Below, one piece after another: positions 4,416-64,000 of a DNA stretch of 64,000 nt. The stretch lies in NCBI RefSeq assembly GCF_032362555.1, contig NC_083519.1, positions 3,055,501-3,119,500 on the forward strand, given 5' to 3'. The translations under genes and the position numbers were made by a program. Origin of the DNA: Amyelois transitella (lineage: Eukaryota > Arthropoda > Insecta > Lepidoptera > Pyralidae). The stretch's first letter is position 1. Every line of letters starts with the position of its first letter. The notes under the pieces were generated by a model, which was not told the DNA's origin, searched no databases, and was given only the letters and a program-made list of their open reading frames with translations.

Positions 4416-4669
4416 AAAAAGAAATAACAATCGTTCAATAAAAAAAGTCGAAAAATTTCTACGATCTTAAATGAGTTCAAAGATTAGTAGCCAAGCGTTG
4501 CTCAATTAGAACAAGATCTTACTCATCTAATCGATTTGGCCTGTATCCAACGCTGCATGACAACAAACAACAAAACGTACGTATGTACGTGACAAGCAAT
4601 GCATTTTAAAATCGAAGAATTAGATATTTACGTAAGACCCACGTGAGTGTTACGAGGTCTAGTCTAGGG

Positions 4670-15620: not shown

Positions 15621-15805
15621 TAAAGGGATAGGCTTACAAAATTGGGATTTTTTTTTAGGCGATGAGTTAGCAACCTGTCACTATTTGAATCTCAATTCTA
15701 TCATTAAGCCAAATAACCGAACGTGGCCATTCAGTCTTTTCAAGACTGTTGGCTTTGTCTACCCCGCAAGGGATATAGACGTGACCATATGTATGTATGT
15801 ATAAT
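15621..15805 (-). repeat. R1 interspersed repeat, partial
   Basis: This has the same orientation as the copy at 4145. It starts at 'aagggataggcttacaaa', passes 'aggcgatgagttagcaacct' and 'tgtcactatttgaatctc', and ends with 'ccccgcaagggatatagacg' and a tatgtatgtatgt tail. It abuts a SINE on its right. Confidence 0.7.
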
Positions 15806-24710: not shown

Positions 24711-24737
24711 ACGGGTGTGTGTTGCGGAGACTTATAC

Positions 24738-24965
24738 ATACATTCATACATATAATCACGTCTATATCCCTTGCGGGGAAGACAGAGCCAACAGTCTTGT
24801 ATAGACTGATAGGCCACGTTAAGCTGTTTGGCTTAAAGATAGAATTGAGATTCAAATAGTGACAGGTTGCTATCATCGCCTAATAGAAGAATCTCAAGTT
24901 TGTAAGCTTACCCCTTAGTCGCCTTTTACGAAATCCATGGGAAAGACTTTTATCGCACCAAAGCC
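24738..24965 (+). repeat. R1 interspersed repeat in SCAMP 3' UTR region
   Basis: It starts 28 bases after the SCAMP stop codon and follows the same block order as the 24075 copy up to 'aaatccatgggaaaga', then diverges. It probably lies within the SCAMP 3' UTR. The minus-strand ORF at 24676-24876 is a shadow of this repeat. Confidence 0.7.
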
Positions 24966-28785: not shown

Positions 28786-31546
28786 CTATGCTTGAGGCGT
28801 GTTCGCGTGTGCGTGGGCCCCAAGCCTGCTGGGGTCCTGGCTGGGGTAGTGGAGCCCCGCCGGCGGGGGCGGGGGCCCTGGGGGCGGTGCCCCGGGTCCC
28901 ATCGGGGGTCCGCCCCACGCCGGCCAACCCGGGCCTCCATAATGGTGAAGGTTGAAAAAGTCGTTTGGACGATTTGGAGGTGGCTGCATCTGTAATATAA
29001 CAAAATTATTAATCTTCTTCATTATGTAAAAGGACTACTAGAGTGCAATTGCCCATAAACAGCAAACGGCCAAAAAAAATTTGCTTATATTACTTGGTTG
29101 GTGCATACAAATTAACTCGCAATTCAGAAATTCCAATACACGTGGAAGAAATACATACCTGAGGTGGGAATGAATGCAAGAATGCTGGCGGTGGAGGCAA
29201 TGTGCCAGGAAGCCCAGGCACTGGCTCCAACCTGGGAGCCATATCATTTTGCTCATTTGCACCTTGTCGACCTGTAAATTAAAATATTGTTGTCAGTTTC
29301 GAAATCATACTCCTGTTAACAATGATTGATGCAAAAAATATTTCATGTTCCCTAATGAGTAAGGCATTACACATTCCATCCAGTCACTCAAGATGTTATC
29401 CCTCACAGTAAGAGAGAGAAAGAAAACAAAATTAAAAGTCCCTTTTATTCGAATATATTTTATTTATTTATTTTATTTTATTTTATAACACACTAGCAGC
29501 TTATTAAGCTGATGCGTGTGTATCCAAAACTTTGGAGATTTTATCTAATCTATTCTTAAAACTGTTGACCGAAGGTGCAGTGACAACACTCTCATTGAGC
29601 CGGTTCCAGTCTCGAACTACACGATTTGATATAAAATTTTCCTTGGGTTTCCTCTTTGCTGAAGTGCGATATAATTTCAAAGAATGACCCCTTAATCTAT
29701 TGCTTCCCGCGAGTTTGAACAGATATTGCAGATTAGGTACATCATAATGTCCTGATAATATTTTATAGGTCTCGATCAGGCGGCCTCTCTGTCTGCGACG
29801 CTCCAAGGTTGTGAGATTCAGTTCCTTTAACCTCTGTTCATATGGTTTGTTTCTCAATAACTTTACTAGTTTTGTTGCTTTCTATATAATGAAACATTGT
29901 GTTTTACCTTGCGATTTTCCCCACTTGATGGTAAGCCTCTTTTCTCCGATCACGAGCCTGTTGAATGTCTTCTCTGCTGCATGTTCCGCTGCACTTCTCG
30001 TTGTGTATTGAACGAAGGCACATTGAGCTCGAGGCACTAGAGTTACGGATCTAGAACAAACAATAAATTCTTGTTGAAGATCATGTGTTACCTGTTTTGG
30101 TATTAATGAGCTTAATGAAGAAACTTAAAGGGGGACCACACCCAAGATTAGGCTGTTTCCTTCAATTTAAGAGAGCTACTATACTGAGTGGAGTCTGCCT
30201 GTATCAAATTTAACCCTATTACAAGAAACCATGATATAAACGTACAATTAACAAGTTTGTTAGTATCATAATATGTACTACGTAAAAATTAAATATACTT
30301 AAATACTTGTTGTTATTGAAGAGCGGGATCTCCTAACACAGGTAATTCCTTACTTAAAAGGAGATCTCGGTCACAAATATTTTTGATCTAAGTTGGTACA
30401 GAAATAAAGAAATTATTTATTTATTTTATCATTTATTTGAAAAGAAGCATTTACCTTATTTCTCCATACTGATAGAAATGGCCCCTCAGTTCCTCTTCGT
30501 TGATGTTGTCCGGAAGGTTGCCCACATACAGTGTTGTGACCGTGTTGTCTTCAGGTGGAGGTAGTGCCGGCATGGCAGCTGCTCGACGCATCAACTTCTC
30601 GGCTACAGGGTCATTTACGCCATAATATCTGTTTTTGAAAAAAGATTTAAATTAGTGACTCGTACACAAAAAACAACTGATAAACAAGGTATTCCTTTGT
30701 AAAGAGTAATCTAAAAAATAAGCACAAATAGATGGTTATACTTGCCTGTCTTTGATGTTCTGGTCGGCCAATGGGTCATCTGGGTCAGTGGGCTTCTCGT
30801 GGCGATATGGACATTCTTCACCACGACGACATTCTCCTTTCACCCAGAAAGAGCAAACATGTGGTCTATTTCTCTTATAATAAGGGGCTGTCCGAGCCAA
30901 ACGTAACAACAGATCCGAAGCACCCTTCGATTTCAAAGCAGAGTTACTTGGCTGACTTGCATCAGACTTTGACATTTGATTGTCCAGATTCTGTATGTAA
31001 TACTCCTTATTGACTTCGTTTCGTGGTAGATCATCTTGAATTTTGAGAGCAGCGTCTCTAACTTGAATCGGAAGCCCATATTCAAGGTCCAAAAGGCATG
31101 TTTGGCACACATTCTTCAATTTGGAACAGGTCTGGCAGATTTCCGTTTTCTTGAAGCGCATGCGGGATCCAGGGCACCAACGGAATACAGTGAAAGGACG
31201 TACACATATTTTACACTCCTTTCCATATTTTTCCTTGGTCTGAAACGAAAAACCAAGTGTTAAGTTATATTAAACCACTATTATAATGTTACAAAAATAT
31301 ATATTAGATATGTATATTATGAAAGAAACAGAAATAAAACAATTACCATTCGTATATATGGGTTATCGCCCAAACACGTCTGACATAATATCGGGAAGTC
31401 CTGCAAAGACAAATAATGGTTAATTAGTTTAATGGGATTTCACATACAGGAATACTTATGAAAAAATTTATTCTGAATCTTTGATTACTTACAGAATCTT
31501 CCCAATTTTGTCGGTTGTAGGTGTTCGTAGACTTCGAAACTGCCAT
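28786..31546 (-). CDS. RBM22: RBM22 pre-mRNA splicing factor, divergent copy A
   Basis: RBM22 is a conserved spliceosomal protein (Nineteen-complex related) that contacts U6 snRNA and the intron in the activated spliceosome. Coding exons, in transcription order on the minus strand: 31493-31546, 31347-31400, 30746-31239, 30455-30628, 29908-30050, 29159-29271, 28786-28989; 411 aa. Visible features: N-terminal zinc-binding Cys pairs (CQTC at 24-27, CKIC at 45-48, C58, CQTC at 71-74 and 81-84), a CCCH finger of C-X7-C-X5-C-X3-H form (165-183), an RRM (about 232-305, RNP2 LYVGNL at 234-239), and a Pro/Gly-rich tail ending [12 protein letters not shown]. Introns are GT-AG except intron 3, which has a GC donor (AG|GCAAGT). 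The ATG is in a good context (gagATGG). Introns 4 and 5 carry LINE fragments and the 3' flank a MITE, none of which occur in the B copies. Confidence 0.95.
29447..29885 (-). mobile_element. 5'-truncated LINE (CR1-like) in RBM22-A intron 5
   Basis: The minus strand encodes the C-terminal end of a LINE ORF2: residues [20 protein letters not shown], then a block with [15 protein letters not shown] and later [20 protein letters not shown] and FKNRL, a pattern I know from CR1/L2-like elements. It runs into an AT-rich (ataaa)n tail at about 29447-29490. It interrupts sequence that is continuous in the B copies, is truncated at its 5' end, and is in the same orientation as the host gene. The 117-codon ORF at 29504-29857 is this fragment and not a host gene. 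Confidence 0.8.
30273..30436 (+). mobile_element. LINE 3'-tail fragment in RBM22-A intron 4
   Basis: About 164 bases are present here and absent from all B copies (B reads cataatttgaaaag across the site). The insert contains 'gaagagcgggatctcctaac', 'aaaggagatctcggtcacaa' and 'gtacagaaataaagaaatta' followed by (ttta)n, which looks like a plus-oriented LINE 3' end with a simple-repeat tail. Confidence 0.65.
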
Positions 31547-31679
31547 CTCAGATACTAACTCAAATATCAGCACGATAGTAATAACATAAAATGACCAAAT
31601 CCTATATGACAAACCACGACGATCAAGCAAACTGACAGACGTAACTCTAACGCAGTGAAGTGAACGATTGAACGTTACA

Positions 31680-31766
31680 ACATCGATATTTCAACACGTG
31701 AAACATCGATTAGTCGACGACACTCGATATTTATCGATTTCCGACGATCATCGATGTATCGATGTA
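31680..31766. promoter_or_regulatory. CGAT-motif cluster at the RBM22-A promoter / unit 1 start (DRE-like)
   Basis: Seven CGAT cores lie within 87 bases, including ATCGATA (31682-31688) and TATCGATG-type sites. DRE (TATCGATA, bound by DREF) and CGATA (bound by BEAF-32) are known housekeeping-promoter and insulator motifs in Drosophila. The cluster begins about 130 bases upstream of the RBM22-A start codon and is repeated in each unit upstream of each B gene, near 36065, 40450, 44835, 49220 and 53609. Confidence 0.55.
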
Positions 31767-32207
31767 ATATGAATATATTATACATAAATTCATATAAATT
31801 CTAGTATTCAATGACCAATGTGTTGAAAGAATCAAAGAGTCAGCATGTTCGAAAAGTGCAAAGAGTTTTATAAATCAGCAGTAGATTGTTTGGTAACATT
31901 ATCTTATTTTACTTTAAGTAAATACCTACATGTATAAATGTATAAATATTAATATACATCGTAACATCGATGATACGGGCACATACAGTTTTTTTTGTCC
32001 CGGACACCTAATCTAAATCGTAATGTCGATTGACAAAAAAAAAATGAAGTACCTAGTTAGATTTTTTTATGTGTTCCCCCCGAAAAAAAATTCAATGATT
32101 TAAATGAATGAATGATAAACAATTTTTATGGTTGTTTTATTGATTGCTTACGCCGCAGAACACCTTGGATGACGTTCGCAATAACATCAAATCAAATGTC
32201 GCATGAC

Positions 32208-32275
32208 ATCGATATTATGACTTCGATAATCATCGCGTGTCGATGTTTGGCTATCGATGCCATCATCGATGTTTT
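32208..32275. promoter_or_regulatory. Second CGAT-motif cluster within the spacer
   Basis: Five CGAT cores (acatcgatatt, ttcgataat, gtcgatg, tatcgatg, catcgatg) lie within 68 bases. The cluster recurs in every unit (about 36593, 40978, 45363, 49748, 54149). With the first cluster and isolated sites near 31966 and 32022, each spacer has about 14. The ORFs at 32112-32414 (plus) and 32192-32383 (minus) overlap this cluster and are not called as genes. Confidence 0.4.
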
Positions 32276-32424
32276 TGCAACACCGATCACCCCTACGTGC
32301 ACAGACAATGATAATAATAATATTGTAATGTCAGGGAACGCGGTGTTGCCAACTGCTGCTCTGCATTGCCGTACCACCCACACACATTTGTCAGGTAGAA
32401 ACTCTGATTGCTGACTCCGTAGGT

Positions 32425-32645
32425 ATCTTTTTTCCGTGGAGATCGTAGAAGGCGACCAAGGGGGACGGTTAATAAACTTGAGGTTCTTCTTGTAGGCGAT
32501 GATGGGCTAGCGACCTGTCACTATTTCAATCTCAAGACTGTACCTACGCTCTGTCTACTCCGCAAGGGATAAAGACGTGATTATATGTATGTAACTAGGT
32601 ACGCGCACGTTTTATTATTATTATCGTGTGTGGTTCCCGGCACAC
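32425..32645 (-). repeat. R1 repeat remnant in each spacer
   Basis: The blocks 'cgtagaaggcgaccaagggg', 'aggcgatgatgggctagcga', 'cctgtcactatttcaatctc' and 'ctccgcaagggataaagacg' match R1 in the orientation of the 4145 copy, and 'gtgtgtggttcccggcacac' at about 32625-32644 resembles its other end. The same remnant is present in all six spacers, so it was inside the unit before amplification. Confidence 0.6.
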
Positions 32646-32945
32646 CACCAGGCAGTTCAGTCTTCTCGAGACTGTCGATATTTTAAATCATATCCACATG
32701 TTAATTATGTAGGTACTTACATATGTATATGCAAAGGTGTAATGAGTCATTACTACACACTTCTATGATCTCTCTACTTGTCCAAGTACCTACGGTATAG
32801 TCGCCGGGCGGGGGCACTACTTTCTCGATTGACGATTGTTACCTAATATCGTACTGATCAGGTGACCAACGTGTGAACGCTGTTTGCGTAACGCGCCGAG
32901 ATGACTTAGATGTGTGCTCAAAAAAACGACAACGTTTCGAGAAAT

Positions 32946-32984
32946 GGCCCCCTACACATCGGTGGCCCAACGTGTACAGGGCCC
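32946..32984. repeat. Imperfect palindrome in each spacer
   Basis: The arms ggccccctacacatcggtgg and gtggcccaacgtgtacaggg (overlapping at the centre) are imperfect inverted copies, about 39 bases in all. It may be the remains of an inverted-repeat element and recurs in each unit at the same offset. Confidence 0.4.
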
Positions 32985-33609
32985 TTTAGACACATTTCAT
33001 AAAATGTTGATAGATTGTCGGATTTAAATTACCCCAAAAAATTTCTAGAAGTAGATAAATACTTACCTATATATAACAGTTGGTTACACACGTTACAATA
33101 AAATGTATGTAAATTTTATATATCATATTCCTATTTATTACGTGTCGAATGGACGGAATACTGAGTGTGACCAGCGACACTACCCCATAGGATCAGAAGA
33201 ATCCAAACTTACAATTGACATTTACAATTTGCTTCTCGTGCAAGAAGCAGGCCGCCAATCATATACAAACTATTTTTTAAGTGGTACGTACCTACGTACG
33301 TACACCAAGTATGAATCGTACGTAAAGAACTAAGACGAGTGGAGATTTAAAAGGAACAAAACAATTTAAACGTTAAACTTGTATATTATTCACATACGAT
33401 ACTAATGTATCATTACAAAATATACCTTATTAATTCTATTTTCCTATTTATACACACGCATGCTAAGTGTTTAACATTTCTTACAGTCTGGTCCTATTTG
33501 GACCTGTGCCTAATCCTACTTGATTATTATCGTACAACTTCTTATTTGCAAACAGCTTTTATCTACAATCAACAATTCTTAAACATGATCGCAAAGTTTA
33601 CAATTACAA

Positions 33610-35876
33610 TTAACACTGTGTTCGAAGCGCGTTCGCGTGTGCGTGGGCACCAAGCCGGCTGGGGTCCTGGCTGGGGTAGTGGTGCCCCGCCGGCGCCGGG
33701 GGCGGTGCGCCGGGTCCCATCGGCGGTCCGACCCACGCCGGCCAACCCGGGCCTCCATAATGGTGAAGGTTGAAAAAGTCGTTCGTACGATTTGGAGGTG
33801 GCTGCATCTGTAATATAACAAAATTATTAATTTTCTTTATCATGTAAAATGACTGCTGGCGGGCGATGGTCCATACACATGTATTGCATAGTTGCAAGTA
33901 GAAATGTTACATCACAAGTGAAGGTACACAGCAAACGGCCAAAAAAATTTTGCTTATATTACTTAGTTGGTACGTACGAATTGTACTCCCAATTCAGAAA
34001 TTCCAAAACGTATGGAAGTAATACATACCTGAGGTGGGAATGAATGCAAGAATGCTGGCGGTGGAGGCAATGTGCCAGGAAGCCCAGGCACTGGCTCCAA
34101 CCTGGGAGCCATATCATTATGCTCATTTGCACCTTGTCGACCTGTAAATTAAAATATTGTTGTCAGTTTCGAAATCATACTAGTGTTAACAATGATAGAT
34201 GCAAAAATTATTTCATGTTCCTTAATGAGTAAGGCATCACGCATTCCATCCAGTCCACTCAAGATGTTATCCCTCACAGTAAGAGAAGAGAGAGAAAAAG
34301 AGTCCCTTTTGTTACAAATAAATAATGAAACGTTGTGTTTTACCTTGCGATTTTCCCCACTTGATGGTAAGCCTCTTCTCTCCGATCACGAGCCTGTTGA
34401 ACGTCTTCTCTGCTGCATGTTCCGCTGCACTCCTCGTTGTGTATTGAACGAAGGCACATTGAGCTCGAGACACCAGAGTTACGGATCTAGAAAAAAACAA
34501 CAAATTCTGATTGAACATCATGTGATCTCTGTTTTGGTATTAATGAGCTTAATGAAGAAACTTATTAAAGGGGGAGCGCACCCAAGATCAGGCCGATACC
34601 ATCAATTTGTGACAGCTACTGTACTGAGTGGAGTCTGCCTGTGTCAAATTTAATCCTATATCCACAAGAAACCATGATATAAACGTACAATTAACATGTT
34701 TGCCATTATCATAATTTGAAAAGAAGCATTTACCTGATTTCTCCATATTGATAGAAATGGCCCCTCAGTTCCTCTTCGTTGATGTTGTCCGGAAGGTTGC
34801 CCACATACAGTGTTGTGACCGTGTTGTCTTCAGGTGGAAGTAGTGCCGGCATGGCAGCCGCTCGACGCATCAACTTCTCGGCTACAGGGTCATTTACGCC
34901 ATAATATCTGTTTTTGAAAAAAGATTTAAATTAGTGACTCGTACACAAAAAACAACTGATAAACAAGGTATTCCTTTGTAAAGAGTAATCTTAAAAATAA
35001 GCACAAATAGATGGTTATACTTGCCTGTCCTTGATGTTCTGGTCGGCCAATGGGTCATCAGGGTCAGTGGGCTTCTCGTGGCGATATGGACATTCTTCTC
35101 CACGACGACATTCTCCTTTCACCCAGAAAGAGCAAACATGTGGTCTATTTCTCTTATAATATGGAGCTGTACGAGCCAAACGTGACAACAGATCCGAAGC
35201 ACCCTTCGATTTCAATGCAGAGTTGCTTGGCTGACTTGCGTCACACTTTGACATCTGACTGTCCAGATTCTGTATGTAATACTCCTTATTGACTTCGTTT
35301 CGTGGTAGATCATCTTGAATTTTGAGAGCAGCGTCTCTAACTTGAATCGGAAGCCCATATTCAAGGTCCAAAAGGCATGTTTGGCACACATTCTTCAATT
35401 TGGAACAGGTCTGGCAGATTTCCGTTTTCTTGAAGCGCATGCGGGATCCAGGGCACCAACGGAATACAGTGAAAGGACGTACACATATTTTACACTCCTT
35501 TCCATGTTTTTCCTTGGTCTGAAACGAAAAAGAAGGTGTTAATGCATGTTATATTATTTTATCACTATAAGTATAATGTGACAAAAATATGTGTATCAGG
35601 TATGTACATATATACCTACATATAAGTAGGTATTAAATTAAATAAACAGAAATAAAATGATTACATACCATTCGTACGTATGGGTTATCGCCCAAACACG
35701 TTTGACATAATATCGGGAAGTCCTGCAAAGACAAATAATGATTAGTTAGTTTTATGGTATTTCAAATACATGAATAGGTACATATATAAAAATGTTACTT
35801 CTGAATCTTTATGATTACTTACAGAATCTTCCCAATTTTGTCGATTGTAGGTGTTCGTAGTCTTCGAAACTGCCAT
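33610..35876 (-). CDS. RBM22: RBM22 copy B1 (array unit 1)
   Basis: Coding exons in transcription order: 35823-35876, 35669-35722, 35025-35518, 34734-34907, 34344-34486, 34029-34141, 33610-33807; 409 aa, frame open throughout, same exon sizes as copy A except the last. All zinc-binding Cys/His of the N-terminal region and the CCCH finger, and the RRM motifs, are kept. It differs from A at N123S, S128C, L148S, P224L, P265S, Q314H, P352T and G370V, has a shorter proline run ([13 protein letters not shown]), and ends NALRTQC because A's TAG stop is CAG here and translation runs two codons to TAA. Intron 3 has the same GC donor as A. A functional role cannot be read from the sequence, but the reading frame and splice sites are intact. 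It shares a synonymous T at 35702 with B2. Confidence 0.93.
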
Positions 35877-37994: not shown

Positions 37995-40261
37995 TTAACA
38001 CTGTGTTCGAAGCGCGTTCGCGTGTGCGTGGGCACCAAGCCGGCTGGGGTCCTGGCTGGGGTAGTGGTGCCCCGCCGGCGCCGGGGGCGGTGCGCCGGGT
38101 CCCATCGGCGGTCCGACCCACGCCGGCCAACCCGGGCCTCCATAATGGTGAAGGTTGAAAAAGTCGTTCGTACGATTTGGAGGTGGCTGCATCTGTAATA
38201 TAACAAAATTATTAATTTTCTTTATCATGTAAAATGACTGCTGGCGGGCGATGGTCCATACACATGTATTGCATAGTTGCAAGTAGAAATGTTACATCAC
38301 AAGTGAAGGTACACAGCAAACGGCCAAAAAAATTTTGCTTATATTACTTAGTTGGTACGTACGAATTGTACTCCCAATTCAGAAATTCCAAAACGTATGG
38401 AAGTAATACATACCTGAGGTGGGAATGAATGCAAGAATGCTGGCGGTGGAGGCAATGTGCCAGGAAGCCCAGGCACTGGCTCCAACCTGGGAGCCATATC
38501 ATTATGCTCATTTGCACCTTGTCGACCTGTAAATTAAAATATTGTTGTCAGTTTCGAAATCATACTAGTGTTAACAATGATAGATGCAAAAATTATTTCA
38601 TGTTCCTTAATGAGTAAGGCATCACGCATTCCATCCAGTCCACTCAAGATGTTATCCCTCACAGTAAGAGAAGAGAGAGAAAAAGAGTCCCTTTTGTTAC
38701 AAATAAATAATGAAACGTTGTGTTTTACCTTGCGATTTTCCCCACTTGATGGTAAGCCTCTTCTCTCCGATCACGAGCCTGTTGAACGTCTTCTCTGCTG
38801 CATGTTCCGCTGCACTCCTCGTTGTGTATTGAACGAAGGCACATTGAGCTCGAGACACCAGAGTTACGGATCTAGAAAAAAACAACAAATTCTGATTGAA
38901 CATCATGTGATCTCTGTTTTGGTATTAATGAGCTTAATGAAGAAACTTATTAAAGGGGGAGCGCACCCAAGATCAGGCCGATACCATCAATTTGTGACAG
39001 CTACTGTACTGAGTGGAGTCTGCCTGTGTCAAATTTAATCCTATATCCACAAGAAACCATGATATAAACGTACAATTAACATGTTTGCCATTATCATAAT
39101 TTGAAAAGAAGCATTTACCTGATTTCTCCATATTGATAGAAATGGCCCCTCAGTTCCTCTTCGTTGATGTTGTCCGGAAGGTTGCCCACATACAGTGTTG
39201 TGACCGTGTTGTCTTCAGGTGGAAGTAGTGCCGGCATGGCAGCCGCTCGACGCATCAACTTCTCGGCTACAGGGTCATTTACGCCATAATATCTGTTTTT
39301 GAAAAAAGATTTAAATTAGTGACTCGTACACAAAAAACAACTGATAAACAAGGTATTCCTTTGTAAAGAGTAATCTTAAAAATAAGCACAAATAGATGGT
39401 TATACTTGCCTGTCCTTGATGTTCTGGTCGGCCAATGGGTCATCAGGGTCAGTGGGCTTCTCGTGGCGATATGGACATTCTTCTCCACGACGACATTCTC
39501 CTTTCACCCAGAAAGAGCAAACATGTGGTCTATTTCTCTTATAATATGGAGCTGTACGAGCCAAACGTGACAACAGATCCGAAGCACCCTTCGATTTCAA
39601 TGCAGAGTTGCTTGGCTGACTTGCGTCACACTTTGACATCTGACTGTCCAGATTCTGTATGTAATACTCCTTATTGACTTCGTTTCGTGGTAGATCATCT
39701 TGAATTTTGAGAGCAGCGTCTCTAACTTGAATCGGAAGCCCATATTCAAGGTCCAAAAGGCATGTTTGGCACACATTCTTCAATTTGGAACAGGTCTGGC
39801 AGATTTCCGTTTTCTTGAAGCGCATGCGGGATCCAGGGCACCAACGGAATACAGTGAAAGGACGTACACATATTTTACACTCCTTTCCATGTTTTTCCTT
39901 GGTCTGAAACGAAAAAGAAGGTGTTAATGCATGTTATATTATTTTATCACTATAAGTATAATGTGACAAAAATATGTGTATCAGGTATGTACATATATAC
40001 CTACATATAAGTAGGTATTAAATTAAATAAACAGAAATAAAATGATTACATACCATTCGTACGTATGGGTTATCGCCCAAACACGTTTGACATAATATCG
40101 GGAAGTCCTGCAAAGACAAATAATGATTAGTTAGTTTTATGGTATTTCAAATACATGAATAGGTACATATATAAAAATGTTACTTCTGAATCTTTATGAT
40201 TACTTACAGAATCTTCCCAATTTTGTCGATTGTAGGTGTTCGTAGTCTTCGAAACTGCCAT
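37995..40261 (-). CDS. RBM22: RBM22 copy B2 (array unit 2)
   Basis: Coding exons: 40208-40261, 40054-40107, 39410-39903, 39119-39292, 38729-38871, 38414-38526, 37995-38192; 409 aa. I see no amino-acid difference from B1. It shares with B1 a derived synonymous T at 40087 in exon 2, where A and B3-B6 have C, so B1 and B2 are probably the closest pair. The spacer upstream of the start codon of this gene is continuous with unit 3. Confidence 0.93.
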
Positions 40262-42379: not shown

Positions 42380-44646
42380 TTAACACTGTGTTCGAAGCGC
42401 GTTCGCGTGTGCGTGGGCACCAAGCCGGCTGGGGTCCTGGCTGGGGTAGTGGTGCCCCGCCGGCGCCGGGGGCGGTGCGCCGGGTCCCATCGGCGGTCCG
42501 ACCCACGCCGGCCAACCCGGGCCTCCATAATGGTGAAGGTTGAAAAAGTCGTTCGTACGATTTGGAGGTGGCTGCATCTGTAATATAACAAAATTATTAA
42601 TTTTCTTTATCATGTAAAATGACTGCTGGCGGGCGATGGTCCATACACATGTATTGCATAGTTGCAAGTAGAAATGTTACATCACAAGTGAAGGTACACA
42701 GCAAACGGCCAAAAAAATTTTGCTTATATTACTTAGTTGGTACGTACGAATTGTACTCCCAATTCAGAAATTCCAAAACGTATGGAAGTAATACATACCT
42801 GAGGTGGGAATGAATGCAAGAATGCTGGCGGTGGAGGCAATGTGCCAGGAAGCCCAGGCACTGGCTCCAACCTGGGAGCCATATCATTATGCTCATTTGC
42901 ACCTTGTCGACCTGTAAATTAAAATATTGTTGTCAGTTTCGAAATCATACTAGTGTTAACAATGATAGATGCAAAAATTATTTCATGTTCCTTAATGAGT
43001 AAGGCATCACGCATTCCATCCAGTCCACTCAAGATGTTATCCCTCACAGTAAGAGAAGAGAGAGAAAAAGAGTCCCTTTTGTTACAAATAAATAATGAAA
43101 CGTTGTGTTTTACCTTGCGATTTTCCCCACTTGATGGTAAGCCTCTTCTCTCCGATCACGAGCCTGTTGAACGTCTTCTCTGCTGCATGTTCCGCTGCAC
43201 TCCTCGTTGTGTATTGAACGAAGGCACATTGAGCTCGAGACACCAGAGTTACGGATCTAGAAAAAAACAACAAATTCTGATTGAACATCATGTGATCTCT
43301 GTTTTGGTATTAATGAGCTTAATGAAGAAACTTATTAAAGGGGGAGCGCACCCAAGATCAGGCCGATACCATCAATTTGTGACAGCTACTGTACTGAGTG
43401 GAGTCTGCCTGTGTCAAATTTAATCCTATATCCACAAGAAACCATGATATAAACGTACAATTAACATGTTTGCCATTATCATAATTTGAAAAGAAGCATT
43501 TACCTGATTTCTCCATATTGATAGAAATGGCCCCTCAGTTCCTCTTCGTTGATGTTTTCCGGAAGGTTGCCCACATACAGTGTTGTGACCGTGTTGTCTT
43601 CAGGTGGAAGTAGTGCCGGCATGGCAGCCGCTCGACGCATCAACTTCTCGGCTACAGGGTCATTTACGCCATAATATCTGTTTTTGAAAAAAGATTTAAA
43701 TTAGTGACTCGTACACAAAAAACAACTGATAAACAAGGTATTCCTTTGTAAAGAGTAATCTTAAAAATAAGCACAAATAGATGGTTATACTTGCCTGTCC
43801 TTGATGTTCTGGTCGGCCAATGGGTCATCAGGGTCAGTGGGCTTCTCGTGGCGATATGGACATTCTTCTCCACGACGACATTCTCCTTTCACCCAGAAAG
43901 AGCAAACATGTGGTCTATTTCTCTTATAATATGGAGCTGTACGAGCCAAACGTGACAACAGATCCGAAGCACCCTTCGATTTCAATGCAGAGTTGCTTGG
44001 CTGACTTGCGTCACACTTTGACATCTGACTGTCCAGATTCTGTATGTAATACTCCTTATTGACTTCGTTTCGTGGTAGATCATCTTGAATTTTGAGAGCA
44101 GCGTCTCTAACTTGAATCGGAAGCCCATATTCAAGGTCCAAAAGGCATGTTTGGCACACATTCTTCAATTTGGAACAGGTCTGGCAGATTTCCGTTTTCT
44201 TGAAGCGCATGCGGGATCCAGGGCACCAACGGAATACAGTGAAAGGACGTACACATATTTTACACTCCTTTCCATGTTTTTCCTTGGTCTGAAACGAAAA
44301 AGAAGGTGTTAATGCATGTTATATTATTTTATCACTATAAGTATAATGTGACAAAAATATGTGTATCAGGTATGTACATATATACCTACATATAAGTAGG
44401 TATTAAATTAAATAAACAGAAATAAAATGATTACATACCATTCGTACGTATGGGTTATCGCCCAAACACGTCTGACATAATATCGGGAAGTCCTGCAAAG
44501 ACAAATAATGATTAGTTAGTTTTATGGTATTTCAAATACATGAATAGGTACATATATAAAAATGTTACTTCTGAATCTTTATGATTACTTACAGAATCTT
44601 CCCAATTTTGTCGATTGTAGGTGTTCGTAGTCTTCGAAACTGCCAT
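42380..44646 (-). CDS. RBM22: RBM22 copy B3 (array unit 3), D241E
   Basis: Coding exons: 44593-44646, 44439-44492, 43795-44288, 43504-43677, 43114-43256, 42799-42911, 42380-42577; 409 aa. A single T at 43557 (G in the other copies) changes GAC to GAA in the RRM, so NLPDN reads NLPEN (Asp241 to Glu), a conservative change just after RNP2. The other domains are as in B1. Exon 2 has the ancestral C. Confidence 0.93.
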
Positions 44647-51153: not shown

Positions 51154-53420
51154 TTAACACTGTGTTCGAAGCGCGTTCGCGTGTGCGTGGGCACCAAGCC
51201 GGCTGGGGTCCTGGCTGGGGTAGTGGTGCCCCGCCGGCGCCGGGGGCGGTGCGCCGGGTCCCATCGGCGGTCCGACCCACGCCGGCCAACCCGGGCCTCC
51301 ATAATGGTGAAGGTTGAAAAAGTCGTTCGTACGATTTGGAGGTGGCTGCATCTGTAATATAACAAAATTATTAATTTTCTTTATCATGTAAAATGACTGC
51401 TGGCGGGCGATGGTCCATACACATGTATTGCATAGTTGCAAGTAGAAATGTTACATCACAAGTGAAGGTACACAGCAAACGGCCAAAAAAATTTTGCTTA
51501 TATTACTTAGTTGGTACGTACGAATTGTACTCCCAATTCAGAAATTCCAAAACGTATGGAAGTAATACATACCTGAGGTGGGAATGAATGCAAGAATGCT
51601 GGCGGTGGAGGCAATGTGCCAGGAAGCCCAGGCACTGGCTCCAACCTGGGAGCCATATCATTATGCTCATTTGCACCTTGTCGACCTGTAAATTAAAATA
51701 TTGTTGTCAGTTTCGAAATCATACTAGTGTTAACAATGATAGATGCAAAAATTATTTCATGTTCCTTAATGAGTAAGGCATCACGCATTCCATCCAGTCC
51801 ACTCAAGATGTTATCCCTCACAGTAAGAGAAGAGAGAGAAAAAGAGTCCCTTTTGTTACAAATAAATAATGAAACGTTGTGTTTTACCTTGCGATTTTCC
51901 CCACTTGATGGTAAGCCTCTTCTCTCCGATCACGAGCCTGTTGAACGTCTTCTCTGCTGCATGTTCCGCTGCACTCCTCGTTGTGTATTGAACGAAGGCA
52001 CATTGAGCTCGAGACACCAGAGTTACGGATCTAGAAAAAAACAACAAATTCTGATTGAACATCATGTGATCTCTGTTTTGGTATTAATGAGCTTAATGAA
52101 GAAACTTATTAAAGGGGGAGCGCACCCAAGATCAGGCCGATACCATCAATTTGTGACAGCTACTGTACTGAGTGGAGTCTGCCTGTGTCAAATTTAATCC
52201 TATATCCACAAGAAACCATGATATAAACGTACAATTAACATGTTTGCCATTATCATAATTTGAAAAGAAGCATTTACCTGATTTCTCCATATTGATAGAA
52301 ATGGCCCCTCAGTTCCTCTTTGTTGATGTTGTCCGGAAGGTTGCCCACATACAGTGTTGTGACCGTGTTGTCTTCAGGTGGAAGTAGTGCCGGCATGGCA
52401 GCCGCTCGACGCATCAACTTCTCGGCTACAGGGTCATTTACGCCATAATATCTGTTTTTGAAAAAAGATTTAAATTAGTGACTCGTACACAAAAAACAAC
52501 TGATAAACAAGGTATTCCTTTGTAAAGAGTAATCTTAAAAATAAGCACAAATAGATGGTTATACTTGCCTGTCCTTGATGTTCTGGTCGGCCAATGGGTC
52601 ATCAGGGTCAGTGGGCTTCTCGTGGCGATATGGACATTCTTCTCCACGACGACATTCTCCTTTCACCCAGAAAGAGCAAACATGTGGTCTATTTCTCTTA
52701 TAATATGGAGCTGTACGAGCCAAACGTGACAACAGATCCGAAGCACCCTTCGATTTCAATGCAGAGTTGCTTGGCTGACTTGCGTCACACTTTGACATCT
52801 GACTGTCCAGATTCTGTATGTAATACTCCTTATTGACTTCGTTTCGTGGTAGATCATCTTGAATTTTGAGAGCAGCGTCTCTAACTTGAATCGGAAGCCC
52901 ATATTCAAGGTCCAAAAGGCATGTTTGGCACACATTCTTCAATTTGGAACAGGTCTGGCAGATTTCCGTTTTCTTGAAGCGCATGCGGGATCCAGGGCAC
53001 CAACGGAATACAGTGAAAGGACGTACACATATTTTACACTCCTTTCCATGTTTTTCCTTGGTCTGAAACGAAAAAGAAGGTGTTAATGCATGTTATATTA
53101 TTTTATCACTATAAGTATAATGTGACAAAAATATGTGTATCAGGTATGTACATATATACCTACATATAAGTAGGTATTAAATTAAATAAACAGAAATAAA
53201 ATGATTACATACCATTCGTACGTATGGGTTATCGCCCAAACACGTCTGACATAATATCGGGAAGTCCTGCAAAGACAAATAATGATTAGTTAGTTTTATG
53301 GTATTTCAAATACATGAATAGGTACATATATAAAAATGTTACTTCTGAATCTTTATGATTACTTACAGAATCTTCCCAATTTTGTCGATTGTAGGTGTTC
53401 GTAGTCTTCGAAACTGCCAT
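51154..53420 (-). CDS. RBM22: RBM22 copy B5 (array unit 5), E245K
   Basis: Coding exons: 53367-53420, 53213-53266, 52569-53062, 52278-52451, 51888-52030, 51573-51685, 51154-51351; 409 aa. T at 52321 (C elsewhere) changes GAA to AAA, so INEEEL reads INKEEL (Glu245 to Lys) at the start of the first RRM helix. This is a charge reversal and the most notable amino-acid change among the B copies. Its spacer has an extra TTCAG near 50201 and shares C at 50452 with unit 6. Confidence 0.93.
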
Positions 53421-55550: not shown

Positions 55551-58500
55551 TTAACACTGTGTTCGAAGCGCGTTCGCGTGTGCGTGGGCACCAAGCCGGC
55601 TGGGGTCCTGGCTGGGGTAGTGGTGCCCCGCCGGCGCCGGGGGCGGTGCGCCGGGTCCCATCGGCGGTCCGACCCACGCCGGCCAACCCGGGCCTCCATA
55701 ATGGTGAAGGTTGAAAAAGTCGTTCGTACGATTTGGAGGTGGCTGCATCTGTAATATAACAAAATTATTAATTTTCTTTATCATGTAAAATGACTGCTGG
55801 CGGGCGATGGTCCATACACATGTATTGCATAGTTGCAAGTAGAAATGTTACATCACAAGTGAAGGTACACAGCAAACGACCAAAAAATTTTGCTTATATT
55901 ACTTAGTTGGTACGTACGAATTGTACTCCCAATTCAGAAATTCCAAAACGTATGGAAGTAATACATACCTGAGGTGGGAATGAATGCAAGAATGCTGGCG
56001 GTGGAGGCAATGTGCCAGGAAGCCCAGGCACTGGCTCCAACCTGGGAGCCATATCATTATGCTCATTTGCACCTTGTCGACCTGTAAATTAAAATATTGT
56101 TGTCAGTTTCGAAATCATACTAGTGTTAACAATGATAGATGCAAAAATTATTTCATGTTCCTTAATGAGTAAGGCATCACGCATTCCATCCAGTCCACTC
56201 AAGATGTTATCCCTCACAGTAAGAGAAGAGAGAGAAAAAGAGTCCCTTTTGTTACAAATAAATAATGAAACGTTGTGTTTTACCTTGCGATTTTCCCCAC
56301 TTGATGGTAAGCCTCTTCTCTCCGATCACGAGCCTGTTGAACGTCTTCTCTGCTGCATGTTCCGCTGCACTCCTCGTTGTGTATTGAACGAAGGCACATT
56401 GAGCTCGAGACACCAGAGTTACGGATCTAGAAAAAAACAACAAATTCTGATTGAACATCATGTGATCTCTGTTTTGGTATTAATGAGCTTAATGAAGAAA
56501 CTTATTAAAGGGGGAGCGCACCCAAGATCAGGCCGATACCATCAATTTGTGACAGCTACTGTACTGAGTGGAGTCTGCCTGTGTCAAATTTAATCCTATA
56601 TCCACAAGAAACCATGATATAAACGTACAATTAACATGTTTGCCATTATCATAATTTGAAAAGAAGCATTTACCTGATTTCTCCATATTGATAGAAATGG
56701 CCCCTCAGTTCCTCTTCGTTGATGTTGTCCGGAAGGTTGCCCACATACAGTGTTGTGACCGTGTTGTCTTCAGGTGGAAGTAGTGCCGGCATGGCAGCCG
56801 CTCGACGCATCAACTTCTCGGCTACAGGGTCATTTACGCCATAATATCTGTTTTTGAAAAAAGATTTAAATTAGTGACTCGTACACAAAAAACAACTGAT
56901 AAACAAGGTATTCCTTTGTAAAGAGTAATCTTAAAAATAAGCACAAATAGATGGTTATACTTGCCTGTCCTTGATGTTCTGGTCGGCCAATGGGTCATCA
57001 GGGTCAGTGGGCTTCTCGTGGCGATATGGACATTCTTCTCCACGACGACATTCTCCTTTCACCCAGAAAGAGCAAACATGTGGTCTATTTCTCTTATAAT
57101 ATGGAGCTGTACGAGCCAAACGTGACAACAGATCCGAAGCACCCTTCGATTTCAATGCAGAGTTGCTTGGCTGACTTGCGTCACACTTTGACATCTGACT
57201 GTCCAGATTCTGTATGTAATACTCCTTATTGACTTCGTTTCGTGGTAGATCATCTTGAATTTTGAGAGCAGCGTCTCTAACTTGAATCGGAAGCCCATAT
57301 TCAAGGTCCAAAAGGCATGTTTGGCACACATTCTTCAATTTGGAACAGGTCTGGCAGATTTCCGTTTTCTTGAAGCGCATGCGGGATCCAGGGCACCAAC
57401 GGAATACAGTGAAAGGACGTACACATATTTTACACTCCTTTCCATGTTTTTCCTTGGTCTGAAACGAAAAAGAAGGTGTTAATGCATGTTATATTATTTT
57501 ATCACTATAAGTATAATGTGACAAAAATATGTGTATCAGGTATGTACATATATACCTACATATAAGTAGGTATTAAATTAAATAAACAGAAATAAAGTGA
57601 TTACATATGTGGCTACCAGCATACTTACCATCAAGTACCAACATACTTACCAACAAGCTTACCTTACCGAATAACAAGAACAACAGTTACCTTCACAATA
57701 CCCAAACCTTACCAGGATATAATAGATATAATACATATATATATAAGAGATGAATAAAACAAATCAAGCACTTTAATATCATGCCGACTTCGTTGCCCAG
57801 AAACCAGAAGAAGCTAGTTCTGAAAAGAACTGTTTTGTGAGTGCGTGCACATGGACATGCCACACATCGTGCATCAGCAGTTCTTCCAGGCAGCATCAGC
57901 ATCTTCACACGCCAATTGTTCACACTGCATTATTGTCCATCGGATCTCCGTCCGAAACAACACAACTCAAGAGTTCGACGCGCACACTGCACTTCGCGAG
58001 AGCATCACGAGCGCGACCTCACGCCGCAAGTTCAAATTAACACTGAGGCGGGGAGCAAGCAGCAAGACGGTTTTATACGCAAGCAAGTTTCGCCCAACAA
58101 ACATCGCGTGCACACCGCACGTGGCGCCCTCGGCGCGCCTGCGGCCGCACCGGGCGTCACAGAAACTCAAGCTCGACACGTGTAGCGGAAACGAGACGGA
58201 GCTATCCAGACTCAAGAGACAGCAATGCAAAATTCTCAGAAATCTATGCAAATCAATTTTATTATCCTCAAAAACTTTTCGATAGATTTCTACTTGTAAA
58301 TACAATCACACTATTGGCTATAATTCGATATTTCTGATTTGTTAAAAATAATCTCTCTTCTTCATTGGTAATAATTCCGTATTTATGATTCGTCCTTGCA
58401 TTTTCCTTTGTAAATAGTTTTATATAAATATGTCCAACTTTTGTAAATAAACCATTCCATTCTCACCTTCTGAAACGGAGTATTATTCTGAACTACAAAC

Positions 58501-61500
58501 CCTGGAGAATCTCTCTCTCTCTCCAAATTGGTGACCTCCGACTGAACAACATCAAGAAGAAGAATCCCTGCTCGTCGGCCCAGCGGAAAAATTCCTGAAG
58601 AAAGAAAATTTCAACGCGGAATCTCTGCCCGACTGCAACAAAAGAAGGAATCATCATGGACGCCGAAAAATCTGCCGCAAATGCCGCCGCCGCCGCCGCA
58701 TCGCAGTCCACACAGCCCGATCCAGCCCACGTCCACAACCAGCCCGAAATCGCCAACATATCCCTCGCTCTGCGGATACCACCATTCTGGCGCGACCGAC
58801 CACGTCTATGGTTCTACAGTTTCGAGGCTGCCACCCACGACCAAAGGAAGGGTGAACAGAAGATGGCGCAGATGGTCATCGCTCGTCTCGAAAAGCAAGA
58901 CATAGAGCAAATCAGCGACCTCCTCTACAATCCGCCAGAGACGAACCCATACCAGGCGATCAAAGAGCGTCTCATCACCGCCTATGAAGAATCGGACAGC
59001 CGGCAATTCCAAAAGCTTCTGTCCGAAATGGAGCTAGGCGACCAAAAACCGACCCACCTGCTACGGCGGATGCGCGATCTCGCTCGAGACAGAATTCCCG
59101 ACGCCACACTACGACTCATGTGGACCAACCATCTACCGGCACATATTCGCTCTGTCCTCGCCGTAAGCGAATCGTTCAGCACGACAACCGCATTAGAAGA
59201 GCTTGCCCTACTTGCCGACAAAATGATGGAACAACATCGGGAAATTTCCGCCATCAACATAACCACGTCGTCGCAATTATCATCACAAGCCCAGTCATCA
59301 TCGCAACCGTCAGATACACAATTTCTTATAAATGAATTAAGAAAACTTTCCGTCGAAATCGCCGAACTGAAATCAAGGCCGCCATACAACAACAACAACA
59401 ACAACAATTATCGAAGAAATCGATCCCAGTCCCGGAACCGCAACTATTCTCGTCCCAACTCACGAGATAATTCGCCATCGCCACATTGTTTTTACCACCG
59501 ACGTTTTGGAGCACAAGCGAGAAAATGTACATCGCCCTGTTCCTACATCGAGAAGCCGGAAAACTAGACCGAACGTTGGCCGAGGCGGAACCCAGCGTTC
59601 TCCCATGTACATACCGCCTATTCGTCACAGATAAAAAGACTGGTTTATCTTTCCTGGTGGACACCGGTGCGAACATTTCGGCTATACCTAGGCTAAAAAC
59701 CAGCCTAACTAAGCCGCTACCCTACAAGCTGTATGCCGCCAACAACACCGTCATATCAACATACGGCGAAAAAACACTCGAACTTGATCTCAACCTACGT
59801 CGTCCATACAAGTGGAAATTCATCGTTGCAGACGTATCGAAGCCGATCCTGGGAGCCGATTTTCTCAAACATCATCAACTCATCGTCGATCTCAAAAACA
59901 AAAGACTAATCGACAACGTTACGAGTCTAAAGGTCAACGCCCCTGTTCGAGCAACATCTGTACCTACAATACGCAGTATAGACTCGAATAATTCGTATCA
60001 CGCGATACTCGCCGATTATCCCGGAATTACTCGTCTCACCGCCATGAATATCAACAATAGCAAGATCAACGTTCAACATTACATCGAAACTGAAGGTCAA
60101 CCTGTTCACTGCCGAGCTCGTCCCATACCACCTCATTGCTACGAGAAAGTCAAACAAGAGTTCCAAAACATGATTGAACAAGGACTTTGTCGACCCAGCA
60201 AGAGCCCATGGTCATCACCACTTCACGTCGTACCAAAGAAGAACGGAGACATCAGAGTCTGTGGTGATTATCGCCGTCTCAATGCGATCACCAAACCCGA
60301 CCGCTATCCAGTACCAAGGGTTAAAGACTTCACCTACCAGCTTGCCGGGAAGACCATATTCTCAGTTTTGGATTTAAATCGAGCTTATCAACAACTGATG
60401 GTTCGTGAGGAAGACATCGAGAAGACAGCCATCATCACACCGATGGGACTATTCGAATTCCCACGAATGTGTCCAGGTCTCAAGAACGCAGGCCAAACCT
60501 TCCAACGTTTCATCCACCAAGTACTCAGAGGACAACCTTTCGTCTTTCCATTCATCGACGACGTACTCATAGCATCAGAAAACGAAACCCAGCACCGTGA
60601 ACACCTACGGCAAGTACTCGAACGACTTGAAGAACATGGCATTACCATCAACCCAGCAAAATGTCACTTTGGCCAACCTGAAGTAAAGTTCTTGGGCTAC
60701 ATCGTATCCAAAGATGGTATCAAACCACCAGCTGAAAAGGTAGACATCATCTCAAAGTACCCCAAGCCCAACACTATCGAAGAACTACGGCGTTTTCTCG
60801 GTATGTTGAATTTCTACCGCGATCACATACCTAACGCCGCATCTATCCAAGCACCACTCAATGCACATCTCCACAACGTCAAGAAACGTGACAAAACCGT
60901 CATACAATGGACACAAGAGTCATCGGACGCATTCGAAGCATGTAAAAACAGCATATGCAACGCTGCTTTACTCGCCCACCCGTCCCACGATGCTACTTAC
61001 GCCCTATTTTGCGACGCTTCGGATAAATCAGCTGGCGCCGTGCTACAACAATACATCGACGAAAAATGGCAACCACTTGGCTATTTTTCTAAGAAGTTTT
61101 CCAGCGCACAAACAAAATATTCAACATACGACAGAGAACTACAAGCAATCTACATGGCCGTCAAACACTTCCGAAAAATGTTCGAGGGACGTCCACTGAT
61201 CATCTTCACCGATCACAAACCTCTTACGTTCGCTATGCACAAAATAACGTCGACTACAGAAACGCCACGCCGTACCCGACAACTCCTATTCATCAGCGAG
61301 TTCACAACCGACATACGCCATGTGAGCGGAAAAAACAACATCGTAGCCGATGCCCTAAGTCGCATAGAAGCAGTGTCATTCCCGTCTACAATCAATTACG
61401 AAGAAATTGCAAAAGCCCAACACGAAGACACATCTGTACTCGACTTACAAAAACAAGACAACATCTGTCTCAAGAAAATCATCATTCCCAACACCGACGT

Positions 61501-63916
61501 CGAACTCTACTGCGAAACATCAACATCGAACATACGACCATACATCCCCGAACAATATCGTGAAGAAGTATTCAAGAGTGTACACAACATCAACCACCCC
61601 GGTACACGCACAACACGGAAGATGGCATCTCAGAAATATTTTTGGCCGTCAATGAATAGCGACATCTCAAGATGGACGAAAAGCTGCATCGATTGTCAAA
61701 AAAACAAAGTTCAACGCCATACCTACAGCGAAGTTTCGAAATTCCCGCCAACTGAACGTTTTCGACACGTACACGTGGACATCGTCGGACCGCTACCTAC
61801 GACACCTCAAGGTTATCGCTACCTAGTAACCATGATTGACCGCGAAACGAAATGGCCCGAAGCAATACCTACCGAGGAAATAACAGCTGACAAAGTTACC
61901 GAAGTAATTTACAACCACTGGATTACGAGATTCGGATGCCCTACAACACTCACCAGCGACCAAGGACGTCAGTTCGAAAGTCAACTTTTCAACAACCTTA
62001 TGAAGCTTATGGGAATCACGAAAAATCGCACTACGGCATACCATCCGCAATCAAACGGTATCGTCGAACGCTGGCACAGAACACTGAAGACCGCACTACG
62101 CACCCGGCTATCAAGTTCAAGGTCATGGATCGACGAGTTACCTACAGTACTATTCGGATTACGCGCCACCCTACGCACAGACGCTGAAGTTAGCCCAGCC
62201 GAACTCACATATGGCTATAACTTACGTCTACCGGGTGAATTTTTCACTACGTCATCAATACCTACATCAATGGACTACAACTTCGTCGAAAAACTACGAT
62301 CTACCATCAAAGAACATAGCCCGCAACAGTCAACAGTACATCACAACAGCAATCCACGCATCTTCATTCATAAAGACCTACAAGATTGCACACACGTATT
62401 TGTTCGTGTCGACGCCGTTAAGAAGTCACTTCAATCACCATACGAAGGCCCTTATCGAGTTATCAAGAGACTAACGGACAAGTACTACACAATTCAACTA
62501 CCGGATCGCGAGTCAAACATTTCAATCGACCGACTCAAACCTGCCTACCTATTGCAAGACGACGACATCGCAAATTCATCAACAATGTCAACACAAGTTC
62601 AAGCTCAAGCTACACTAGGTCAAAGTCAAGCTATCGCTAAGGCACAGGCGCAAGAAAGTACCTCACCACAGAAAATTCCCGCTCCGGTCAATACGAGCAA
62701 CATGACGCCACAACAAATGGATAAGAAAACTCGTGTCGGCCGTGCCGTCAGGTTGCCGGTACGTTTCACTTGAGGGGGAGTACTGTGGCTACCAGCATAC
62801 TTACCATCAAGTACCAACATACTTACCAACAAGCTTACCTTACCGAATAACAAGAACAACAGTTACCTTCACAATACCCAAACCTTACCAGGATATAATA
62901 GATATAATACATATATATATAAGAGATGAATAAAACAAATCAAGCACTTTAATATCATGCCGACTTCGTTGCCCAGAAACCAGAAGAAGCTAGTTCTGAA
63001 AAGAACTGTTTTGTGAGTGCGTGCACATGGACATGCCACACATCGTGCATCAGCAGTTCTTCCAGGCAGCATCAGCATCTTCACACGCCAATTGTTCACA
63101 CTGCATTATTGTCCATCGGATCTCCGTCCGAAACAACACAACTCAAGAGTTCGACGCGCACACTGCACTTCGCGAGAGCATCACGAGCGCGACCTCACGC
63201 CGCAAGTTCAAATTAACACTGAGGCGGGGAGCAAGCAGCAAGACGGTTTTATACGCAAGCAAGTTTCGCCCAACAAACATCGCGTGCACACCGCACGTGG
63301 CGCCCTCGGCGCGCCTGCGGCCGCACCGGGCGTCACAGAAACTCAAGCTCGACACGTGTAGCGGAAACGAGACGGAGCTATCCAGACTCAAGAGACAGCA
63401 ATGCAAAATTCTCAGAAATCTATGCAAATCAATTTTATTATCCTCAAAAACTTTTCGATAGATTTCTACTTGTAAATACAATCACACTATTGGCTATAAT
63501 TCGATATTTCTGATTTGTTAAAAATAATCTCTCTTCTTCATTGGTAATAATTCCGTATTTATGATTCGTCCTTGCATTTTCCTTTGTAAATAGTTTTATA
63601 TAAATATGTCCAACTTTTGTAAATAAACCATTCCATTCTCACCTTCTGAAACGGAGTATTATTCTGAACTACAAACCCTGGAGAATCTCTCTCTCTCTCC
63701 AAACATACCATTCGTACGTATGGGTTATCGCCCAAACACGTCTGACATAATATCGGGAAGTCCTGCAAAGACAAATAATGATTAGTTAGTTTTATGGTAT
63801 TTCAAATACATGAATAGGTACATATATAAAAATGTTACTTCTGAATCTTTATGATTACTTACAGAATCTTCCCAATTTTGTCGATTGTAGGTGTTCGTAG
63901 TCTTCGAAACTGCCAT
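55551..63916 (-). CDS. RBM22: RBM22 copy B6 (array unit 6), LTR element in intron 2
   Basis: Coding exons: 63863-63916, 63709-63762, 56965-57458, 56674-56847, 56284-56426, 55969-56081, 55551-55748; 409 aa if spliced normally. Protein sequence is as in B4. Intron 2 is about 150 bases in the other copies but 6,250 bases here because a Ty3/Gypsy element lies in it, on the opposite strand, starting six bases inside the 5' splice site. The donor hexamer GTATGT is preserved by the target duplication. Whether the intron is still removed cannot be told from the sequence: premature polyadenylation or mis-splicing is plausible. Confidence 0.88.
57608..58527 (+). repeat. 5' LTR
   Basis: It begins TGTGGCTACC and is repeated with a constant offset of 5,176 bases at the right end of the element. 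It contains a tatatatataag stretch near 57735 that could be the TATA element. The end is uncertain by one base because the neighbouring A is ambiguous. Confidence 0.9.
58529..58542 (+). other. Primer-binding site (tRNA-Trp-like)
   Basis: TGGTGACCTCCGA lies directly after the 5' LTR. It resembles the complement of an insect tRNA-Trp 3' end (TGGTGACCCCGA type), the primer used by CsRn1-clade elements, with a small mismatch. Confidence 0.6.
58656..59567 (+). CDS. gag of the Ty3/Gypsy element
   Basis: A 303-codon ORF. A capsid-like helical region follows an Ala-rich start ([17 protein letters not shown]), and an Asn/Ser/Arg-rich part precedes a single C-terminal finger, [18 protein letters not shown], of C-X2-H-X9-C-X3-C form. 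That CHCC order is the mark of the CsRn1 clade, where most Gypsy elements have CCHC. It overlaps pol in another frame, and the family is known to use frameshifting. Confidence 0.85.
   Translation: MDAEKSAANAAAAAASQSTQPDPAHVHNQPEIANISLALRIPPFWRDRPRLWFYSFEAATHDQRKGEQKMAQMVIARLEKQDIEQISDLLYNPPETNPYQAIKERLITAYEESDSRQFQKLLSEMELGDQKPTHLLRRMRDLARDRIPDATLRLMWTNHLPAHIRSVLAVSESFSTTTALEELALLADKMMEQHREISAINITTSSQLSSQAQSSSQPSDTQFLINELRKLSVEIAELKSRPPYNNNNNNNYRRNRSQSRNRNYSRPNSRDNSPSPHCFYHRRFGAQARKCTSPCSYIEKPEN
59486..62773 (+). CDS. pol of the Ty3/Gypsy element (PR-RT-RNaseH-IN)
   Basis: A 1,095-codon ORF with protease ([12 protein letters not shown]), reverse transcriptase (FIDDVLIAS), RNase H ([15 protein letters not shown]), an integrase zinc-binding region (HPGT... 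CIDCQ) and an integrase core ([29 protein letters not shown]) in the usual Ty3/Gypsy order. No chromodomain is evident. It begins 82 bases before the end of gag, in a different frame. Confidence 0.92.
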   Translation: MFLPPTFWSTSEKMYIALFLHREAGKLDRTLAEAEPSVLPCTYRLFVTDKKTGLSFLVDTGANISAIPRLKTSLTKPLPYKLYAANNTVISTYGEKTLELDLNLRRPYKWKFIVADVSKPILGADFLKHHQLIVDLKNKRLIDNVTSLKVNAPVRATSVPTIRSIDSNNSYHAILADYPGITRLTAMNINNSKINVQHYIETEGQPVHCRARPIPPHCYEKVKQEFQNMIEQGLCRPSKSPWSSPLHVVPKKNGDIRVCGDYRRLNAITKPDRYPVPRVKDFTYQLAGKTIFSVLDLNRAYQQLMVREEDIEKTAIITPMGLFEFPRMCPGLKNAGQTFQRFIHQVLRGQPFVFPFIDDVLIASENETQHREHLRQVLERLEEHGITINPAKCHFGQPEVKFLGYIVSKDGIKPPAEKVDIISKYPKPNTIEELRRFLGMLNFYRDHIPNAASIQAPLNAHLHNVKKRDKTVIQWTQESSDAFEACKNSICNAALLAHPSHDATYALFCDASDKSAGAVLQQYIDEKWQPLGYFSKKFSSAQTKYSTYDRELQAIYMAVKHFRKMFEGRPLIIFTDHKPLTFAMHKITSTTETPRRTRQLLFISEFTTDIRHVSGKNNIVADALSRIEAVSFPSTINYEEIAKAQHEDTSVLDLQKQDNICLKKIIIPNTDVELYCETSTSNIRPYIPEQYREEVFKSVHNINHPGTRTTRKMASQKYFWPSMNSDISRWTKSCIDCQKNKVQRHTYSEVSKFPPTERFRHVHVDIVGPLPTTPQGYRYLVTMIDRETKWPEAIPTEEITADKVTEVIYNHWITRFGCPTTLTSDQGRQFESQLFNNLMKLMGITKNRTTAYHPQSNGIVERWHRTLKTALRTRLSSSRSWIDELPTVLFGLRATLRTDAEVSPAELTYGYNLRLPGEFFTTSSIPTSMDYNFVEKLRSTIKEHSPQQSTVHHNSNPRIFIHKDLQDCTHVFVRVDAVKKSLQSPYEGPYRVIKRLTDKYYTIQLPDRESNISIDRLKPAYLLQDDDIANSSTMSTQVQAQATLGQSQAIAKAQAQESTSPQKIPAPVNTSNMTPQQMDKKTRVGRAVRLPVRFT
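62772..62783 (+). other. Polypurine tract
   Basis: gagggggag lies immediately before the 3' LTR, the expected plus-strand primer position. The pol ORF ends beside it. Confidence 0.7.
62784..63703 (+). repeat. 3' LTR
   Basis: It matches the 5' LTR throughout by eye. Its right end abuts acata, which with the acata at 57603-57607 left of the element forms the short target duplication. The exact end base is ambiguous by one A. Confidence 0.9.
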
Positions 63917-64000
63917 CTCAGATAATATAACACCAATATCAGCACCACAGTTAAAGGTGAAAAATATTAAATGATCAACAAATAAACAATGTAGGCACCA

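Follow-up and report, generated by a model that had tools for sequence, protein, structure and literature searches.

How did a gene that, to our knowledge, is normally single-copy come to stand in a tandem row of seven, and do these copies amount to more than extra doses of the same protein? Exploring a 64,000-nt window of Amyelois transitella DNA, i.e. the whole stretch that was analysed, we found the full set of RBM22 coding exons seven times over, head-to-tail and always on the minus strand. Exons were placed with the human RBM22 protein as guide, and the models were then fixed by splice sites and checked in each copy. Copy A (28786..31546, minus strand), the conserved or canonical gene, encodes 411 aa in seven coding exons (exons 1-4 at 31546-31493, 31400-31347, 31239-30746 and 30628-30455; exons 5-7 at 30050-29908, 29271-29159 and 28989-28786) and ends with its own TAG stop at 28788-28786. 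The other six copies, termed B, encode 409 aa each and lie on the same strand: B1 (33610..35876), B2 (37995..40261), the coding sequence of which equals that of B1, B3 (42380..44646), B4 (46765..49031), B5 (51154..53420) and B6 (55551..63916), the second intron of which is split by an LTR element. All seven copies have seven coding exons and an open frame, the acceptors of exons 2-7 read AG in 7/7 copies, and donors read GT throughout, save for a GC after exon 3 in 7/7 copies, indicating that this GC-AG intron probably predates the A/B duplication. The exon-3 donor of copy A, with CAG before the junction and gcaagt after it, lies at 30740-30745, and the homologous site is GC in every B copy. 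A retrogene origin was ruled out, as introns are present in every copy. The sequence-only reading had counted seven intact RBM22 genes; the exons, splice sites and open frames bear out this count, but one of the seven, B6, is interrupted in intron 2.

That the gene is RBM22, as had been proposed, was confirmed by structure matches, domain order and phylogenetic placement. A 171-aa stretch from exon 3 of B1 matched RBM22 chains in the PDB (e.g. 5mqf_P, E 1.6e-92). Both copy types carry STL11_N, the RBM22 CCCH zinc finger and an RRM (RRM_1), followed by a proline-rich tail, so that the domain order of this relative of yeast Cwc2 and Ecm2/Slt11 is the same in A and B. PF21369, PF25584 and PF00076 scored above the curated Pfam cut-offs in both copy types; Torus (27.9 and 26.7) and zf_CCCH_4 (27.2 and 28.7) fell slightly short of their cut-off of 29 in A and B alike. 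Copy A is 87-93% identical to eight orthologues taken as lepidopteran, and a nine-row clade of lepidopteran RBM22 proteins (A, B and seven others) was recovered at 100/100, with inner relations mostly unresolved. PMC8833553 describes RBM22 as highly conserved across animals and plants and as steadying the catalytic core of the spliceosome, with depletion screens repeatedly pointing to an important or essential role; here the gene forms seven tandem sets and has a derived B type. Our search of the open-licence literature returned no title dealing with a duplicated RBM22 in insects, and a search with six peptide patterns found no relatives in viral contigs.

Which of the two copy types is derived? 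Copy A had been taken as the divergent one, and both the alignment and the core tree reverse this assignment, A being the conserved copy and B the derived one. The alignment (14 rows) comprised A, B and twelve orthologues (eight presumed lepidopteran), which came from a protein search with 90% clusters inside which B-like proteins could sit hidden. Judged against the twelve orthologues, B alone departs at 10 of the 17 aligned A/B differences and A alone at 2; five are undecided, including P265S, which is also present in Leptidea. Eight sites separate A from B within the core (residues 1-306). In a tree of the core built from 13 of the 14 rows (P0007 was dropped for an aberrant gene model) the branch of copy A has length 0 and that of copy B 0.027. 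A and B form a clade (100/98) in this tree, 6/10 inner branches of which are open. The core protein differences between A and B fall on the B branch. They include I34V and Y41H, at positions otherwise invariant in the aligned rows covering them, as well as L148S and P224L; moreover, the TAG stop of A is CAG in B, adding two residues. Twelve residues are common to A and B and absent from the lepidopteran rows (only columns occupied in six or more of those rows were counted), indicating that part of the divergence of this lineage is older than the duplication.

The A/B divergence also bears on whether the B copies are functional genes. Introns of A and B differ at 84/925 aligned sites (9.1%), and dN (0.018-0.020) and dS (0.097-0.113) give a ratio near 0.16-0.20. 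When half of the divergence was assigned to the B branch, neutral simulation yielded an expectation of 29.5 core amino-acid changes versus the 8 A-B differences found, and 0/20,000 runs were as low as 8. The probability changes with the share of divergence assigned to the B branch, from 0.005 at 30% to 0.13 at 20% and 0.83 at 10%, the last two being non-significant. Since outgroup DNA would be needed to fix the B-branch share of silent changes, constraint on B is likely, short of proven; B was probably under purifying selection after the A/B duplication, and conversion from A could have erased some of its changes. Were the B copies dead or dying, their frames would be open by chance, and in the simulation a B branch evolving neutrally would indeed keep its core free of stop codons with a probability of 16%. 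The shortfall of core changes speaks against this explanation, as do the frame and splice sites kept intact in six B copies and the lengths of the exons (equal in A and B for exons 1-6, 12 bp apart for exon 7) as against at least 22 indels in the introns, and we regard it as highly improbable.

Differences between A and B are distributed in patches (153 in 2156 columns of the gene alignment). Intron 3 differs at 1/117 sites, compared with 5.5-14.2% in the other five introns. The longest run of the gene with zero differences from B1 spans 246 aligned columns in exon 3 of A (30981..31226, minus strand), and a further 132 aligned columns with zero differences cover intron 3 and exon 4 of A (30581..30712, minus strand). 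In a permutation that takes all columns alike, though exons are conserved anyway, the mean longest identical run was 75 columns and 0/10,000 permutations were as long as observed; because exon conservation adds to the 246-column run, intron 3 is the stronger evidence for conversion. We read the two runs as putative A-B gene-conversion tracts. Outside the coding region, the A-B match stops 18 bp beyond the stop codon of A (28768); inspection by eye would place this end at perhaps about 45 bp. At the other end the match grows weaker in the 5' UTR.

To the right of copy A, comparison of the window with itself revealed a unit period of 4385 bp, and periods of 4389-4390 and 4396-4397 bp in later units. 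The units are direct, head-to-tail and on one strand, and their near-identity extends to non-coding sequence, all features of a recent tandem array. The near-identity claimed earlier holds at 99.851-99.977% over 15 pairs, five units entering at full length and the sixth with its left part. The unit alignment varies at 10 substitution columns and contains indels of 12, 5, 1 and 1 bp (excluding the gap where the left part of the sixth unit meets the LTR element), none of the four indels being coding by position. U6 has a private 12-bp insertion, and U5 has a private 5-bp insertion and a private 1-bp deletion. Neighbouring units share variants (column 1294 in U5 and U6, column 4089 in U1 and U2), which fits stepwise expansion or unequal exchange. 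U1 differs from all other units at four substitution columns, each of which falls within its first 263 alignment columns (to 31881), and from about 31649 onward the spacer 5' of A scarcely differs from the other spacers. Such a pattern would be left by an unequal crossover, or by conversion, involving the A and B upstream spacers. An assembler may also have multiplied one or two B units or strung haplotypes together, an artefact with which the small distances among U1-U4 (just 1-5 substitutions per 4385 bp) and the exact 4385-bp spacing, found three times, would agree. Units with private features, namely the indels of U5 and U6, the coding changes of B3 and B5 and the 6.1-kb LTR element of B6, are difficult to reconcile with such an artefact, and two haplotypes in series would yield two copies, not six; we therefore consider it quite unlikely. 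No known structured RNA was detected in the unit, where no Rfam family reached its gathering score, and ARAGORN found no tRNA in the window.

The first-unit spacer, upstream of A and downstream of B1 (31631..33598), harbors nine ATCGAT words in 1968 bp versus nine in the 28,700-bp left part of the window, and five of them lie within 82 bp (31682-31763). None of 2,000 spacers simulated with a first-order Markov model reached nine ATCGAT or a cluster of five. The cluster is positioned 141-217 bp upstream of the ATG of A and 196-272 bp upstream of the ATGs of B1-B5. Words resembling ATCGAT are a mark of housekeeping promoters in insects, and the clusters are candidate promoter elements only. The full DRE word TATCGATA, tried as a promoter motif, had 0 matches in the window, which holds just the ATCGAT clusters. 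Promoter-like clusters had been ascribed to every unit; they are real upstream of A and of B1-B5, but that of B6 is not in the window. As each unit contains a copy of the sequence upstream of A, B1-B5 may each be transcribed.

Variation among the B copies allowed us to examine the most recent phase. Three of the 10 substitution columns are coding (Q25, synonymous; D241E, private to B3; E245K, private to B5), as compared with about 2.8 expected from the 28% coding share of the unit length, all of these being small numbers. E245 is identical in 14/14 aligned proteins, and E245K reverses the charge at this position. With private amino-acid changes in two of the B copies, there is no clear sign that every copy is constrained today, and at these small numbers the B copies appear to have passed the recent phase with no visible constraint among them. 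Of the three meanings that had been proposed (dosage gain, a sex- or germline-specific role, recent neutral amplification), a recent event is favoured by the near-identical units, the coding changes near the length expectation, E245K and a fresh retroelement, with the amendment that the expansion sits on an older, derived paralogue.

These data also bear on a selective explanation, according to which a dosage gain or a specialised (e.g. germline or sex-specific) RBM22-B was favoured and the copies were kept for a change in splicing. The open B frame, probably constrained through much of its history, the core changes that map to the B branch and the ATCGAT cluster present alike upstream of A and B1-B5 are all compatible with selection. 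However, the share of coding columns is close to expectation, two of the three coding changes alter the protein (one of them where all aligned proteins agree), and a retroelement has entered B6; selection of this kind would thus seem unlikely to have shaped the array. A narrower proposal casts RBM22-B as a spliceosome variant specific to gonad or sex, with a copy number raised by genetic conflict or dosage selection; we consider it very doubtful. If it were true, a single insect would hold a core catalytic-centre protein in two forms with a tunable ratio.

The retroelement of B6 is an LTR retrotransposon of ~6.1 kb (57608..63703, plus strand) that lies in intron 2, antisense to the gene. Its LTRs (57608-58527 and 62784-63703), 920 bp each, are 100% identical. 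A 1100-codon frame gave RT, RNase H and integrase family matches, an order of domains from which we judge the element to be of the Gypsy type, and a second frame, which we read as gag-like, matched DUF7041. The flanks share CATA or ACATA, likely the target repeat. Five bases separate exon 2 from the element (six if the target repeat is ACATA), and the exon-2 donor of B6 still reads gtatgt; intron 2 of B1 measures 150 bp. With the element positioned beside its exon-2 splice donor, B6 is probably impaired. The sequence visible 5' of the B6 ATG amounts to 84 bp, after which the window ends, so that the promoter region of B6 and any seventh B unit lie outside the view. The array had been described as continuing past the right edge, but the last visible bases are the upstream sequence of B6 itself.

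The history that we favour, and hold to be reasonably probable, is a two-step tandem amplification, in which an older A/B duplication was followed by a later expansion of spacer plus B that brought extra, near-neutral or mildly beneficial dosage. In the older step, canonical RBM22 (A) would have been duplicated beside itself to give B, after which the core protein of A remained unchanged and B would have gained I34V, Y41H, L148S, P224L and others and lost the stop codon. In the recent step, unequal crossing-over between homologous spacers would have multiplied the spacer plus B unit (~4.4 kb) to the six present in the window, and gene conversion may have homogenised patches of A and B. Most likely, the outcome would be a higher dose of a slightly modified RBM22, with a near-neutral or mildly beneficial effect. 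Given a butterfly mutation rate of about 3e-9 per site and generation, the 0.1% between units would correspond to the order of 10^5 generations and the 9-11% between A and B to the order of 10^7, both being lower bounds because of conversion and exchange.

Head-to-tail order, near-identity, neighbour-shared variants and conversion patches are the same here as in other tandem arrays formed by unequal crossing-over. Such arrays usually hold environment-facing or immune genes, or multi-copy RNA or histone genes, and the present array differs in gene type, as its gene encodes a core spliceosome protein. Ampliconic sex-chromosome or drive-related gene families (a related review is PMC12941216) resemble this locus in having a derived paralogue that recently expanded to many copies next to a conserved gene. 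The locus looks like a real case of a derived RBM22 paralogue that was recently amplified in tandem beside the conserved gene, an event of a known kind that would have struck an unusual target. If the copies are real and expressed, they offer a natural test of the tolerance to a several-fold dose of a core spliceosome gene and to a derived variant of it; should they be silent, or their number vary freely, they would be a clean case of recent amplification in which retroelements and amino-acid changes are starting to erode the copies.

Three further features of the window were noticed. Intron 5 of copy A measures 636 bp versus 202 bp in B1 and carries an insertion within 29427-29883 with an open frame at 29504-29881 (minus strand); this frame had no Pfam match and presumably resembles the 3' end of a non-LTR retroelement. 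A gene for a secretory carrier membrane protein (SCAMP; 19971-24707, plus strand) lies tail-to-tail with the RBM22 array; two of its exons match Pfam SCAMP, and its further exons were judged by eye. A dispersed repeat of ~200 bp, 84-90% identical and present in both orientations, was found at 4159-4417, 15615-15802, 24065-24321 and 24732-24946, and is possibly a short mobile element.
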